64,000 bases of DNA from Tupaia tana (Eukaryota > Chordata > Mammalia > Scandentia > Tupaiidae), in NCBI GenBank assembly GCA_026018925.1, contig JAKSZU010000002.1, positions 158,281,400-158,345,399 of the forward strand, given 5' to 3'. Shown piece after piece: positions 3,019 to 63,382 of the stretch. A model generated the notes under the pieces. It was not told where the DNA came from, made no database searches, and saw only the letters and a list, made by a program, of their open reading frames with translations. Each line of letters starts with the position of its first letter. Within the stretch, counting starts at the first letter, position 1. Position numbers and translations under genes: made by a program.

Positions 3019-3031
3019 CGTTCCTTCTTTT
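3019..3031. repeat. Left target-site duplication of the HAL1-like element
   Basis: The 13-bp string CGTTCCTTCTTTT is repeated exactly at 5432-5444. Because the element's T-rich end follows directly, the inner edge could shift by a few Ts. Confidence 0.9.
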
Positions 3032-3039
3032 TTTTTCTC

Positions 3040-3345
3040 TTTAAATTTATTTATTTTTTACATTAATTCATTATACATCATTACAGCATACAAATGAATT
3101 TTCCATCCAAAATACACTGTGTATTGGCTCAATCAAGCACATCAACATACATGTTTTCAGCAAATAATTTTCCAATTCGTATGTCTTGTATACTTTGTTT
3201 TTTGTTTTGCCATCCTTGATTCCTTATCCCTCACCCTCTGCCATGTCCCACCCTCCTCCCACATTGTCTCTAGTATCCATGGTTGCTTTCTATGCCTTCC
3301 CCCCCATTTAATTGATTTGCTAATGAACTTATTAATCTAAATATG
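3040..3345 (-). repeat. 3' UTR repeat copy 1 (distal) of the HAL1-like element
   Basis: This copy is homologous to 3540-3845. Both hold a CATCATNACANC-type segment, GCTCAATCAAGCA/GCTTAATCAAGCA, and a purine-rich tract on the element strand (CCCTCACCCTCTGCC on the plus strand here). L1 3' UTRs typically have a G-rich polypurine tract in this position. Confidence 0.7.
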
Positions 3346-3539
3346 TCTAATAGCTAGCACAGCTGATATATACCTATACCTGAACCCAAGTCTGACTTTA
3401 GGCATAAATCCCAGTGAGTAGAATGAACATATTATAAAGTAGTACCCAGCTGGGGCTATATAGCTTACTGCAGTCATCAAATATGCATTTTTTAAAATTG
3501 ATATACGAACAGTTTTACCGTTTTTTTTTTCCTGCAACT

Positions 3540-3845
3540 TTTTTTTTTAATTACTTAACACTCATTCCCTGAGCATCATCACAACGTACTAAGTGTGGTT
3601 TCCCATCTAGAATAAACTGCATAGTGGCTTAATCAAGCATGTTATCATCAATAATATTCCATTTCTACTTTCATACAAATGTATACGTATATGTATGTTT
3701 TTTACCCCATGTTTGACCCTCTGCCCTTTCCCACTCTCTTATTACACTATCTCTGCTACATACAGTTGTATTCCATTCCTTTTTCTCCAACATTTTGTTG
3801 ACCACACAATATCATAAGTAATCTAACTACTTTCAGCAGGTAATT
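3540..3845 (-). repeat. 3' UTR repeat copy 2 (proximal) of the HAL1-like element
   Basis: It shares the order of motifs with 3040-3345, including GACCCTCTGCCCTTTCCCA and the AATCAAGCATGTTATCAT segment. T-runs at 3519-3528 and 3539-3549 separate the two copies, so on the element strand each copy ends in an A-rich stretch. Confidence 0.65.
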
Positions 3846-4197
3846 TCAAGAAGAGTAGTTTTGAACTGGTAATGATATTTCCTTGAAACTTAAAGCCTAG
3901 AAACAGGTTAGTATTCTGTTCAAATAGTAGGTACATGCACCTATCAACAGCTCAAGACAAGACAAAAATCCATTAAAACTGGAAAACAAAGCTTAGGAGA
4001 AAAGCAGCAATAATTTAGTCAAGTCTCAGAATGTTGTTTCATTGGTTCAGTCTCATGTACTTAACCTTTCTTCTGTTAAGGTTCGATCTTCCAGATTGAA
4101 TTCTCGGATATAATATTCATCTCAACATTGTCCCTACAATTAAGTTGCCCATTTTCTTAGTTTTTGAACTCTTATTTCTGTGTGTCTGCATTTAATT

Positions 4198-5180
4198 TTA
4201 CTGACATAGCACTCCCTTAAGAACTTCTTGGAGATCTGGTCTGGTGCTGGTAAATTCTTTCAGGTTTTGTTTATCTGGGAAAGTTCGTGTCTTTTCTTCC
4301 CAAATGAATGATAACCTTGCTGGGTACAAAATTCTTGGTTGAAATTGCTTTTCCCTTAATACTTTGAATATATTTTCCCATTCTCTCCTTGCTCGCATTG
4401 TTTCCGATGAGAGGTTTGCCGTTAGTCTGATGGGATACCCTTTGTAGGTAACTTGCCTCTTTTCTCTTGCCAGCCTTAGTATCTTGTCTTTGTCTGTGGT
4501 TTTGGTCAATCTGGCTATAATGTGTCTTGGAGAAGATCTTCTTGTGTTGATTCTATTTGGGGTCCTCTGTATTTCTTGGGACTGAATCTTTGAGTGCCTC
4601 TCCAGGTTTGGAAAGTTTTCTTGCAGGATTTCATGGAATAGATTATCAATGCCCTTATGAGTCTCTTCACCCTCTGGGATGCCTATTATCCGGATGTTTG
4701 GACGTTTAATTGTATCTAGTACTTCTCAAATTTTTGGGCCATTTTCTCAGTCTTCATGGTGGATTTTTCTAGGCCAGCCATTTTCTCTTCTACATTAGAG
4801 ATTCTATTTTCTGTATGATCTAGTCTTCTTTTAATACTTTCAAGGGAGATTTTGACTTCTTGTATTATAGCCTTCATATCTAACAGTTCCATCTGATTCT
4901 TTTGTAAAGTGTGAAATTCCTCTTTTAGATCTTGCATGAATTTCCTCACCTCCTGGAACTCTTCAACTCCTTTCTCCTTCCTCTTCAGCAGTTCCTTGTC
5001 TCTCTTCTCTTCCATCTCTGTTAGCTTTGCCATTATGAATGTTCTGAATTCTTTATCAGACATTTCCATGATTTCCATTGAACTGAGTGTGGATGAAGGG
5101 GAACTATCCGTTTCCCTTGTGGGAGAGGCATTTTCCTGCTTCCCCTTATTTCTTGTGGTCCTGCAGTGATTTCTAGTCAT
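4198..5180 (-). pseudogene. L1-type ORF1 (ORF1p RNA-binding protein), one frameshift
   Basis: ORF1p is the trimeric RNA-binding chaperone of L1-type elements. The start chosen is ATG at 5180 (MTRNHCRTTRNKGK), the first in frame after the 5' UTR. Residues about 45-150 form a charged, heptad-like coiled coil rich in E, K, L and M. The RRM begins at KRPNIRIIGIPEGEE, a hallmark of mammalian ORF1p. The C-terminal domain carries YKGYPIRLTANLS, TMRARREW, FQPRILYPARLSF and TRPDLQEVLK. Total coding length is about 327 codons against 338 in the human protein. The N-terminal part (5180-4716) stops at TAG 4716. The RRM/CTD part continues in another frame, open from about 4722 to the stop at 4198. A single small indel near 4716-4725 therefore explains the break, and no other disabling change was seen. 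The rest of the ORF is unusually intact, so insertion was relatively recent. Confidence 0.88.
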
Positions 5181-5205
5181 CTGGTGGATGGTCGGTTTCT
5201 TCCCA

Positions 5206-5431
5206 AACTTGGAAGTTCAATCACGCGTGTTTTGTATGCTGGAGGCCCAGTTAGCAGTGGGACATCTTCCTTTCTCCCAAAATGGCTAGATCGCAGGAGG
5301 CATGGAGCTGTCTGTCTCTTGAAGAAGGGCTGTTCACGTGGGCTTTGTATGCTGGAGGCCCAGTTAGCAGTGGGACATCTTCTTTTCTCCCAAAATGGCT
5401 AGATCGCAGGAGGCATGGAGCTGTCTGTCTC
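5206..5431 (-). promoter_or_regulatory. Tandem 5' UTR promoter monomers of the HAL1-like element
   Basis: An 88-bp block at 5231-5318 is repeated at 5344-5431 (offset 113 bp, one visible mismatch, CTTCC/CTTTT region). The 25-bp linker 5319-5343 has a diverged counterpart at about 5206-5230. Each block carries AAAATGGC (5279-5286 and 5392-5399), matching the YY1 core also used by other L1 promoters. The linker has a CACGTG E-box (5335-5340). The array begins mid-monomer at the TSD. Confidence 0.8.
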
Positions 5432-5444
5432 CGTTCCTTCTTTT
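5432..5444. repeat. Right target-site duplication of the HAL1-like element
   Basis: Exact copy of 3019-3031, directly abutting the 5' UTR monomer array and followed by AGCATA. Confidence 0.9.
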
Positions 5445-5693
5445 AGCATACAAGAAAGCGCATGTTTATTACATGTCTCCTACAGACGACATTAGGCTCA
5501 CCATCCACAAGAACATCACAGTCTACCAAAAACGGATATGTAAAGATTTCATATACAAAGTTACAAAGTTACTGTAAATTGGAGAGGTTCATACAAGCAA
5601 AGTGAGTGCAGGCACAAAGAACCTAGTGACTAACACTAATACTCTATATGAATCAAAGGGAAATTTCATCAAAAGCTGAAGAGTTGCAACTTT
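5445..5693. other. Unique spacer
   Basis: AT-rich sequence between the HAL1-like element and the next SINE. No recognisable feature. Confidence 0.5.
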
Positions 5694-5939
5694 CTTTTTT
5701 TTAAGACATATTTCTGCTATGGAGCACATGCACTCACCAGAGAGGCAGAGGGCAAGAAATCACCCTCCTAGTGAGGAAGGCCACTCTGAAATCCCTTTTC
5801 CTCCATTCTCCTCTTGGGACTTTGGGTATGAATGCACACATGCCTGACAGGAATTTCAAGCCACTGGGTCCGAGACTCTAACCACAGTGAGCCATGTGGG
5901 AGTCCGATGATGTAATCATTACACCATCTGCTGGCCCCA
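5694..5939 (-). mobile_element. Family A SINE
   Basis: A T-run at 5694-5702 leads to TTTCTGCTATGGAGCACATGC (end motif) and CCTCCATTCTCCTCTTGGGA (body). The head ends ACACCATCTGCTGGCCCC. The copy is full length and moderately eroded. Confidence 0.85.
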
Positions 5940-6119
5940 AAGGTCTGCATCTTCAGATGCAATTGTAGTACAGTGGGCTTCCAAGAAGAGGAAATAGGTA
6001 CAAATGCACAGAGCGTTGATCAGAATGGCTTAGGCATGGAAGGTGGAGTAGATGGGACAGGCACAATGTTGCTGTTTAAGAATCAATACTAATATAGTCA
6101 TAATATTTTATATATTAAT

Positions 6120-6345
6120 ATTGGTAACATTTATTGAACATTTCCTAGATCCTAGGCAGTGTACTAAATGTTTTATGTGGTAGTAACTCATTTCAGCATC
6201 ACAATAATAAGGGACAATTCATAGTGTAATTTTTAAAATGTGAAAATGGATATGGGAAGAGATTTAACATATTGCTCAGAGTCATGAAAATAACAATTGG
6301 TAGAGTTGGAATTTGAACCCTGGTATTCTGACTCTAAAAGCACTT
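6120..6345 (-). repeat. MIR element
   Basis: Reverse-complement MIR order: AACATTTATTGAACATTTCC, AGGCAGTGTACTAAATG, GTAACTCATTTCAGCATCAC, then GAGTTGGAATTTGAACCC. The last segment is the tRNA-related end. A long MIR copy by mammalian standards. Confidence 0.85.
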
Positions 6346-6349
6346 TTAA

Positions 6350-6547
6350 GGACCAGTGAGTGGCAAGGTGGTTAGAGTGCTGGGCTCTCAAATGGTCAAT
6401 TGTGGTTCAAATCCTGACCTGGTGGCTTGCTTTCTCACTTTCCCTCTCTCTCTCTCTCTCTGTCTCTGTCTCTCTCTCTGATGACTATAGAAAGTTAAAA
6501 AATAATAATAATAAAGACAACCAATAAAATAATTCTCTAAAAAAAGA
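6350..6547 (+). mobile_element. Family B SINE
   Basis: The head is GGACCAGTGAGTGGCAAGG, with a GTGGTTCAAATCCTGACC B-box-like stretch and GGTGGCTTGCTTTCTCACTT. A (CT)n tract follows, then ATAATAATAATAAAG and a TAATTCTCTAAAAAAAG tail. Confidence 0.85.
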
Positions 6548-6679
6548 AATTATTTAACCCCTATTCAATGTCACCCACCTGTATAGAATCTCATAGAAAA
6601 ATTCAAGCCATAATTTAAAATAGATCAATTTGCCACTGGGGTCAGTATATACACACTTCATTACACACTTTTGGTGCAG

Positions 6680-6940
6680 AGTTTGGGATTTTTTGTTTTG
6701 TTTTGTTTTAGTTTAGTTTGCTATAGGGTGAATGTACTCACTGGAGAGAGAGGGAGGGAGGGAGAGAGGGAAGGAGAGAGAGATTATACCTTGGGACAGA
6801 TGGCCACATCATAATCCCTTTCCCAACATTCTCCTCTCAGGATTTGGGGCATGCATATCCCTGCTGGGTCCAGGATTTGAACCGTGAAGTCAGCCATATG
6901 GAATCCAGCTGTCCAAACTATGTCACCTGCTGGCCCTGGG
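6680..6940 (-). mobile_element. Family A SINE with GA-rich expansion
   Basis: TTGCTATAGGGTGAATGTACTC at 6719 is the end motif. It is followed by a GGGAGGGAGGGAGAGAGG expansion, the CTCCTCTCAGGATTTGG body, and a head ending TGTCACCTGCTGGCC. The T-rich flank at 6690-6712 is the tail. Confidence 0.82.
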
Positions 6941-6944
6941 ATTA

Positions 6945-8507
6945 ATTTTTTAGAAAGTAACATTTTATTTTTCTGGTTTTAAGATTAAATCATTAAATAT
7001 TCAGTAGATTATCAGAAAGAATCAGAAGGTACACATTTTAAATCCTTAAGATTTTCCCTTCATCATTAGTGAATAATTACTCCAATTACCCTTTAAGAAG
7101 CACTTTGCTTGTTCATACTCACTGGGGTTGCAGATCATTTCTTTAATTTGAAAAGCAAATAAAATCCTTACAGTAAATCTTTCACTGCTACCCTCTAAAA
7201 TATCAGTGCTAGAAGGTAAACAAAGGTTGGATGGTTGAGTGTGTTAACTACCAGAAAACTCTGCTAACCATCACTTCAACATATTGATAGTAAAATAATA
7301 ATCAAGATTTATAATTATATTGCTGAGGCTTTGTAAATTCCCCGAACACTTGTGAAATGATCAAATACTAAGTGATGATTATGATATTTTTACATAAATC
7401 GACTTTTATTGTCTTTTAATTCCTTGAACTTGTCCATGCACGCAAGATATCTAGTAACCATAAAATTTGATTAACCCAAATATCTTCTGCTTGACCCACA
7501 CCATGTTACAGTCAGCTGTATAGAACTCACTTCTATGCATTTGGAAAACTGCCAGGTGTTTCCATGTTCTTTGCATAACACTGACTACTGACAAATGTTA
7601 CATCCTCACAACACAGTCATCCCTGCCACCGTTAATGATATAGAGGGGTCCTCCCGGGCATACCTATTATACCACAAATGCATCCATTTGGTCTGACAGA
7701 AAACTGTCTGCTTGGATTATAGAACGGTTTTTGAAAGAGAGTATTCATAAGTGCTTGGCTAATAGTTTATAATCCTGTATTGAATAGTTCGTATACTTAT
7801 TTATCACCCATGTCATGATCCAAAGTCATATCTTAGCGGAGCTGTGGCCGCACTGTTTATTCATGTTCAGAAATCACATCACTATGGGTTTTACAAGCCT
7901 CTTGGAATTTATTGTGGAACTCAATTGCGGAGTGATCAGTGCTTTGACAGGATATCATACTCAGTAAGTTCAAATCTATATTTTTGTCCACAAGATCGAG
8001 TGTGTTGACAAATTTTTGGCATAGAACTTCTATATTCTATGTCAAGTGAGACTCTTGTCTGATGCTTTTACAAAGTCCTTGTGAAATTGATCTTTCATAT
8101 AGATTTTCTCATACACGCTTTCAATACCTGAGCTTTCTCAATAGTACTTAGCCATCAAAAATCAAATACCTTCAAAGTCTCTAGAGGGTCACATCTCCCA
8201 ATTGCTTTGGAAACCATTAAACAGAACAAATTCACAGCCTCTCATTTGAAGAATACAATCGCAATCACTGGAGGAGTACACAGGCCACCACGTATCCCAT
8301 TACGCTTCAGGAGAACCTGAAAATCTTTTCACTCTCTTACAGTAACTTCTGCAAATCAGGTGAGAATCTTCGTTATAATTTATTTTACAAAATTTAATTC
8401 ATGTAGTTATATTTAAGAGGTATGTATTTTGCCTACCACATTCAATTTTTATGGAGTCACTTCAATAAACTTTACTTTAAAATTCTAATATATTTTCTTT
8501 CTTTTCT
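6945..8507. other. SINE-free stretch, possibly with decayed coding-derived sequence
   Basis: About 1.5 kb without recognised repeats. Base composition between about 7500 and 8340 is more balanced than in the flanks. Short open stretches exist on both strands, for example a minus-strand open run of roughly 55 codons around 8030-7860. No family could be named and stops and frame changes are frequent. It may be a very old processed pseudogene or simply unique sequence. Confidence 0.3.
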
Positions 8508-8775
8508 AAAATTGTTGTAGGGTACATGTGCTTGCCAGAGAGAGAGAGAGAGAGCGAGCGAGCGAGCATGGAAGAGGGAGAAAGAAAGAGAATGAGAAAG
8601 CACACCCTAGAGGGGATGACCATGCACAATCCTTTCTCCTCCATTCTTCTCGGGATTTGGGACATGTATGTATCCACATGCACCCATTTTTTCAAGCTGC
8701 CTTTCCGGGACTTGAACTATACAGTTGGCCATGAGGGATCCAGCTGCCTTAACCACCATGCCACCGACTAGCCCC
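8508..8775 (-). mobile_element. Family A SINE
   Basis: GTTGTAGGGTACATGTGCTTGC is the end motif, followed by a (GA)/(GCGA) expansion and a CCTCCATTCTTCTCGGGATT body. The head ends ACCACCATGCCACCGACTAG. Confidence 0.85.
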
Positions 8776-8814
8776 CTAACATATTTTCAACATGTAGTTT
8801 ATTCACTTTCTTTT

Positions 8815-8886
8815 TTTTTCAAGAATTATTTAACTTCTTTACTTTATTTATTTTAATTTGACCAGAGGTGGACAGCATGAGATAAT

Positions 8887-8971
<85 letters not shown>

Positions 8972-9053
8972 CAAGCCACCAGGTCTAGGACTTGAACTGA
9001 CCTCAGCCATGTAGCAGTCCAGTATCCTTAACTACCACGTCACCTGCTGGCCT
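8815..9053 (-). mobile_element. Family B SINE split by microsatellites
   Basis: The tail AATTATTTAAC...TTTATTTTAATTTGACCAG and the head GGACTTGAACTGACC...CACGTCACCTGCTGGCC are separated by an expanded dinucleotide tract that replaces the normal GA-rich segment. Confidence 0.85.
8890..8969. repeat. Compound (TA)n(GA)n microsatellite
   Basis: About 17 TA units (8890-8923) join about 22 GA units (8926-8969) inside the family B SINE. It probably grew from the SINE's own GA-rich segment. Confidence 0.97.
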
Positions 9054-63108: not shown

Positions 63109-63311
63109 CAGTAAATGTGTTTATGTTGCAGTTACTCTTACATGATAATTTTATCTTTCCGGAGAATCTGGTATGACCAGAGCAAAATTTTACAGATAAT
63201 TCTGTGGCATGTAGGGGAAACTCTGAAAGGCTTTGTTTGTTGTTTTGTCTTACTTTGCTTTCTTTTTTTTTTTTTTGGGGGGGGGGTGGTTTGTTGGTGA
63301 GTCTTTTTATT

Positions 63312-63382
63312 TATTTTTTATTTAAATTTATTTATTTACATTCATTCACTATACATCATTACAGCATACAAAATGTAAATAT
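63312..63382 (-). mobile_element. L1/HAL1 3'-end fragment
   Basis: TTTAAATTTATTTATTTACATTCATTCACTATACATCATTACAGCATACAAA is nearly identical to the distal 3' end of the HAL1-like element at about 3040-3095. It is 5'-truncated to about 60-70 bp. It shows that this 3' end has been mobilised more than once. Confidence 0.8.

Follow-up and report, generated by a model that had tools for sequence, protein, structure and literature searches.

The window, i.e., the whole stretch of 64,000 nucleotides that was analysed, contains at positions 3032–5431 (minus strand) an ORF2-less L1 derivative flanked by exact target-site duplications (TSDs). The 13-bp direct repeat CGTTCCTTCTTTT is found at 3019–3031 (the 3' copy, for which the TSD statistics over copies given below also speak) and at 5432–5444 (the 5' copy), and the unit in between is antisense, in agreement with the preliminary description of this DNA; the insertion point on the nicked strand is TTTT/AG, close to the L1 endonuclease consensus. 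The first bases of the element, GAGACA at 5431, are also the start of copies L046, L014 and L025. They lie in the first copy of monomer A (5335–5431, minus strand, 97 nt; self-match and 5'-end comparison), followed by a second copy (5222–5334, minus strand, 113 nt; self-match and junctions), which is exon-like and has its terminal CGCGTG directly before the ORF1 leader; the two monomers are 96% alike, with 113-bp spacing. The ORF1 leader exon (5181–5221, minus strand, 41 nt), delimited by comparison of leader junctions, opens with ATTGAACTTCC and forms the 3' side of the apparent splice junction 5222/5221. Frames and protein matches place ORF1 at 4198–5180 (minus strand); it encodes 331 aa in open copies, and the window version carries a 13-bp deletion near 4727. 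Downstream, at 4090–4152 (minus strand), alignment with the host L1 L048 and the old L1 L032 revealed a remnant of the first L1 ORF2 codons (ATG at 4150–4152), with clear homology over ~33 nt and weaker homology to ~70 nt. The ~1.17-kb 3' UTR is composed of an inner unit (modules A–C, approximately 3521–4089, minus strand), closed by a fossil A-tract at ~3521–3554, and an outer unit (modules B–C, approximately 3032–3520, minus strand) with AATAAA and the A-rich tail in which the element terminates. No reverse transcriptase or ORF2 match was found within the window element; an autonomous L1 would carry ORF2 with endonuclease and reverse transcriptase, and just the ~33–70 nt mentioned are left here. 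The parts named previously (promoter-type monomers, an ORF1 region, a 3' UTR and no reverse transcriptase) were thus recovered, the promoter role of the monomers being putative. Elsewhere in the window, positions 63305–63372 contain a short piece of an older HAL1 3' end (86–87% alike), and a tRNA-like SINE has 31 matches, including the query copy at 834–1045, the others being 64–80% alike.

This structure alone, in which ORF1 is followed by the beginning of ORF2 and by a 3' UTR, is compatible with a single L1 that suffered a private internal deletion of ORF2, but searches of the 2.95-Gb genome indicate otherwise. With the 3' UTR as a query, the best 40 of 4165 first-look candidates, the window included, showed 96–100% identity; 39 non-window relatives, chosen by likeness to the window, were fetched from this search with flanks, and in all of them ORF1 passed into the same 3' UTR unbroken over the junction, L009 and L043 spanning it with merely ~50–70 nt of ORF1. 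With the junction as a query, the best 40 places (window included) were 97–100% identical, and a second query, taken from copy L046, yielded 39 non-self scored matches, all spanning the same junction at 97–98%; the match sets of the three queries overlap. Relatives with ORF2 at the junction, which the preliminary description had named as the sign of one damaged L1, amounted to 0 of the 39 relatives and 0 of the 39 L046-query matches. Older copies found in the flanks (L030, L017, L013/L015 and L021; ~10–29% diverged) are equally without ORF2, and the window 3' UTR differs from that of the young L1. The private deletion is refuted by the junction common to the relatives and retains practically no probability; the identity of the window element as a member of a multi-copy, ORF2-less HAL1 family, proposed earlier from the letters alone, is confirmed. 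First-look counts of 4041 to 8974 are loose and do not represent copy numbers; the 700 exact leader motifs genome-wide (438 + 262, see below) give a lower bound for the copies extending to the leader.

The copies bear the marks of L1-type insertion. 5' inversions, a hallmark of L1, occur at three loci (L010, L035 and L043), and a terminal repeat of at least 13 nt was present in 19 of 33 tested copies versus 32 of 1056 swapped-tail controls; the test covered 33 of the 39 loci (L009, L019, L028, L035, L041 and L043 were omitted), and L020, one of the 19, resembles SINE sequence and not a TSD. The A-rich tail with TSDs characteristic of HAL1 is accordingly found both in the window and in these 19 of 33 copies. 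The body alignment comprised 33 of 40 copies (L009, L010, L019, L029, L035, L041 and L043 were left out), which lie 1.2–2.2% from the majority state with a mean pairwise distance of 2.9%, bearing out the suggestion of a fairly recent family. A general mammalian substitution rate of ~2.2e-9 per site per year, which may not be that of the host, would put the family age in the region of 7 million years. The closest pair of aligned copies is at least 1.5% apart, except for L013/L015 (C331:5.73–5.75 Mb) and L027/L028, two pairs that differ by 0.3%, have similar flanks and appear to be segmental duplicates. The best neighbours of L046 are 98% identical among the scored matches; since no copies more than 99% identical to a query occur among the scored matches outside segmental duplicates, present activity of the HAL1 family is unsupported.

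The tree of ORF1 against host L1 ORF1, proposed earlier as a check, cleanly separated eight HAL rows from six L1 rows (support 100/98); some of the old rows are short, and L039 was called L1 by likeness only, as its fragment ends before ORF2. The young L1 of the host (L048–L050) resembles HAL1 in the start of ORF2 and in the homologous ORF1 (77% DNA and 71% protein identity; dN 0.17, dS 0.90, dN/dS ~0.18), and differs from it in possessing ORF2, 158-bp monomers and 5' and 3' UTRs unrelated to those of HAL1 except for the A-rich ends, so that the A-tail is the sole obvious shared recognition point. All three fetched copies of this L1 have open ORF1 (322 aa) and ORF2 (1320 aa) and are 99.35–99.5% alike; in an ORF2 search, dozens of the best 150 matches lay within frames of 1313–1344 aa. 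A parent L1 with a HAL-type 3' UTR was sought downstream of the old L1 L032 (in L051), where the ORF2 match stops early, and none was found. The two halves of the HAL1 3' UTR match each other at 60–62%; among five old copies the inner half is nearest to L009 (74%) and L017 (76%), and the outer half to L021 (76%), while L009, L013/L015 and L021 apparently have a single 3' UTR unit. Judging from these matches, the HAL1 3' UTR is a dimer, for which the simplest reading would be that a transcript read through into another truncated HAL1 tail, or that the element landed next to one, and that the joined form then spread.

In the window, ORF1 is disrupted by the 13-bp deletion at codons 152–156, leaving frames of 154 and 103 aa, and the characterisation of this copy as near-intact does not hold; coding capacity is maintained at the level of the family only. 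The check for copies with intact ORF1, also suggested earlier, gave a positive result: an open 331-aa ORF1 is present in L015, L027, L044, L045 and L046 (5 of 31 independent copies), the near-duplicate of L015, L013, has an open ORF1 of 333 aa, and that of L042 reaches 340 aa via an insertion. The RRM and C-terminal domain attributed to the window ORF1 were found in the open copy L008, whose product matches Pfam Transposase_22 (8e-33), Tnp_22_dsRBD (8e-24) and solved human ORF1p structures (7e-66), the window frame itself being broken. The rarity of open copies, together with the CGA-to-TGA change that stops 11 of the 31 at codon 303 and points to ready decay, speaks for an alternative in which the HAL1 ORF1 is open merely through youth and is dispensable, L1 ORF1p working in trans. 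The distribution of substitutions argues against it. Relative to a neutral expectation of 2.72 non-synonymous (N) to 1 synonymous (S) change, derived from the 3' UTR spectrum, non-CpG variants common to at least two copies comprise 20 N and 19 S (plus two stops; omega 0.39, p=0.0035), versus 162:73 (plus nine stops; omega 0.82, p=0.16) for singletons; the difference between the two classes is marginal (Fisher p=0.043). Changes on the source lineage after the old L017 copy, polarised with this ORF2-less copy and L1 outgroups and with 16 ambiguous changes excluded, number 16 N and 16 S (omega 0.38, p=0.009); the private changes of that old copy number 33:14 (three stops within the 33; p=0.74). 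The segmental duplicates L013 and L028 were excluded from the selection counts, and the copy trees left out L040 as well. These N:S ratios of shared and source-lineage changes, small in counts but concordant, show purifying selection on ORF1, kept when ORF2 was already gone.

The codon-303 stop requires eight changes for ten rows of the tree (shuffled mean 8.5; 218 of 500 shuffles as low), and two other CGA stops occur in three copies each. A subfamily with a 302-aa ORF1 was considered and found no support, the stop being unclustered on the tree and located at a CpG; it represents either a hotspot or an unseen subfamily. The lack of clustering fits repeated decay and not the spread of a stopped source, and with the selection on shared and source-lineage changes, the latter in the absence of ORF2, it makes a dispensable HAL1 ORF1 unlikely; an ORF1 retained by selection is the preferred reading.

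Comparison of the 5' parts indicated that the leader of the window copy is not the complete one. Monomer A ends in CGCGTG or a near variant, and in the fetched copies it has three continuations, namely GTAGGAAG-like sequence (the spacer), AACAGCCC (the next monomer A) and ATTGAACTTCC (the ORF1 leader), with one exception in L047 and one chance match in L030. A typical acceptor, ...CACACTCCTCGACCCTCAG, stands directly before the leader in unspliced copies. The 34 copies with a leader, once duplicates were reduced to one, gave 11 in which monomer A is joined to the leader (the window among them), 20 that keep the spacer end, and the chimera L011; L009, L010, L019, L035, L041 and L043 have no leader and so lie outside the comparison. 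Among the independent joined copies, all 11 have a joint that coincides with the terminal GT and AG of the segment which the 20 others retain. Genome-wide, exact motifs were found for 262 joined and 438 unspliced junctions, with 0 for reversed controls; the joined share is 37% of 700 exact junctions, with variants missed on either side (the joined pattern misses the CACGTG ends of L022, L024 and L045, and the unspliced pattern misses L026, L037 and L042). The window joint 5222/5221 therefore appears, from this comparison of genomic copies, to be a splice junction with the GT-AG intron missing, and it is the sole window joint claimed as splicing; the earlier description of the element as complete does not extend to its 5' leader.

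A short leader might otherwise be an older leader form, or a product of recombination or template switching. Arrays of monomers alone are found across the genome (2639 A-A joints), so monomers can lack the spacer, and well-supported branches of the body tree alone force just three changes of the spliced state. In the best tree, however, the ten joined rows need nine changes, about as many as with shuffled labels (mean 8.5), and the joined state, being unclustered, most likely arose many times. Copies L059 and L060 contain an 11-nt AATTTTTTAAG between monomer A and the leader, and the same piece is flanked by TTTTAG and GTGAGG in the unspliced spacer, which identifies it as a putative micro-exon. 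With these AG and GT flanks, the coincidence of 11 independent joints with the GT/AG ends of a segment that 20 other copies retain, and the joining of a host exon, EIF2AK4 exon 1, at the same base (see below), an origin without splicing is very improbable, and splicing of the leader is preferred. Twelve odd leader junctions were collected with a pattern that required a non-A first base and hence covers a part only; nine look by eye like mutated standard forms, two are the micro-exon cases (L059 and L060) and one is L058 (C642:86784980-86785500), where the leader is preceded by non-HAL sequence ending in GCGGCAGAAG, possibly another trapped host exon.

The joints between two monomers A are often found within long arrays of 113/114-bp units. 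Contig C18 from 20659 is a mostly pure-A array of 113-bp units running to the contig end, and at C242:303209-318655 there are 47 exact spacer-A joints, spaced by ~330 bp, in an array that is cut off by an assembly gap. The possibility that all A-A joints are splice products was rejected, since they are too many and long pure arrays such as that of C18 exist; the A-A joint of the window (5335/5334) may simply reflect tandem repetition.

A host-gene chimera is seen in L011 (C975:54025880-54031779), a copy with a 15-bp terminal repeat that opens with 223 bases identical to C353:32516613-32516835, encoding the N-terminus of GCN2/EIF2AK4 (E=1e-25). The EIF2AK4 gene reads GACCG|GTAGGA there, a splice donor, and L011 passes at this point into the ATTGAAC of the HAL1 leader. 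Intron 1 of the gene contains, ~8.9 kb downstream of exon 1, a same-orientation HAL1 (C353:32505816-32507748, 97%) that is unspliced and has its acceptor intact (the loci of this case are L011, L057, L061 and L052, C353:32505560-32516860). Three places outscored the intron-1 HAL1 in a search with the L011 body. A tree built from 31 copies places the intron-1 HAL1 as sister to L011 (95/93); no other row is nearer to L011 (2.3%), and four bases are common to these two alone. Without the intron copy L011 grouped with L012 (82/82), and with it L011 regrouped with the intron copy. Given the sister placement, the distance and the four bases, the intron-1 HAL1 is the likely source of the chimera; the event was hardly very recent, as the bodies differ by 2.3%, though the exon is identical.

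According to published accounts, HAL1 derives from L1, has ORF1 alone and originated on several occasions (PMC5753468), and it is dependent on L1 enzymes (PMC5322556; PMC4161310). In the guinea pig HAL1 kept ORF1 for ~29–44 Myr (PMC3627910), and HAL1 activity is mentioned for the rat (PMC8535693); with these precedents, a young HAL1 with an open ORF1 is not new in kind. The mammalian HAL1 (Bao and Jurka 2010; Repbase HAL1) is likewise L1-derived with ORF1 only, an A-rich tail, TSDs and a long-kept ORF1; the family studied here shows a leader of monomers and spacer, a 3' UTR that is dimeric and many spliced copies, in which it may differ from the named HAL1 subfamilies. Human L1 SpIREs are similar as insertions from RNA spliced inside the 5' UTR at GT-AG sites (PMC5860796), unlike which the present copies belong to HAL1 and not to an autonomous L1, have a donor repeated per monomer and include a micro-exon form. 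The spliced share is 262 of 700 exact junctions here versus ~2% (131/6,609) of annotated full-length human L1PA1–L1PA6, the counts having been made differently (PMC5860796). The window copy combines the precise GT-AG loss from the 5' leader, with unspliced sisters, with a body that is ORF2-less in 39 of 39 relatives and hence does not stem from the mRNA of an autonomous L1; its mode of origin resembles that of SpIREs, yet it is no L1 SpIRE. In the case of RAP1GDS1-L1PA2, a SpIRE of a human intronic L1 under the control of a host promoter, a host exon was likewise spliced in the direction of the L1 and the product inserted at another site; the acceptor there is cryptic and lies 15 bp before the L1 (PMC13174262), and the one used by EIF2AK4 exon 1 is within the HAL1 leader. 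Among the matches listed in literature searches on HAL1, open-access titles and the starts of abstracts contained no spliced HAL1 copies. HAL1 families, human SpIREs and gene-L1 chimeras are each already known; their combination here and the spliced share look unusual.

Taken together, the window unit is very probably one HAL1-type insertion of a family that has its own ORF1p and an often spliced leader, and would use L1 ORF2p in trans. An ancestral L1 would have lost nearly all of ORF2 long ago and retained ORF1; RNA polymerase II would transcribe the HAL1 RNA from the monomer array, with the spacer or the monomers as the presumed promoter. This RNA would encode its own ORF1p, perhaps bound in cis, its leader would often be spliced before insertion, and insertion would proceed by target-primed reverse transcription with L1 ORF2p supplied in trans. 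The observations behind this scheme are the ORF2-less family, its own ORF1 clade, ORF1 selection, TSDs, A-rich tails, open partner L1s and GT-AG joints. Since splicing removed the spacer, the window copy would be a poor or dead-end source. In one cell assay, Alu transcripts made by Pol II required ORF1p besides ORF2p (PMC2666806), which fits a HAL1 bringing its own ORF1p. More tentatively, and with the balance tilted against it, HAL1 might possess a multi-exon leader with a donor in each monomer and a strong leader acceptor, about a third of insertions being spliced and intronic copies regularly borrowing host promoters once their own array is lost.

The family offers a natural setting in which to ask why a retrotransposon retains an ORF1p of its own and borrows ORF2p, as one genome holds copies with open and with stopped ORF1, a young partner L1 and ORF1 selection. 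Its insertions record how often the parent RNA was spliced, a share that far exceeds the one in the human L1 report (the counts being made differently), so that splice choice, promoter loss and host-promoter capture are open to study from genomic copies alone.
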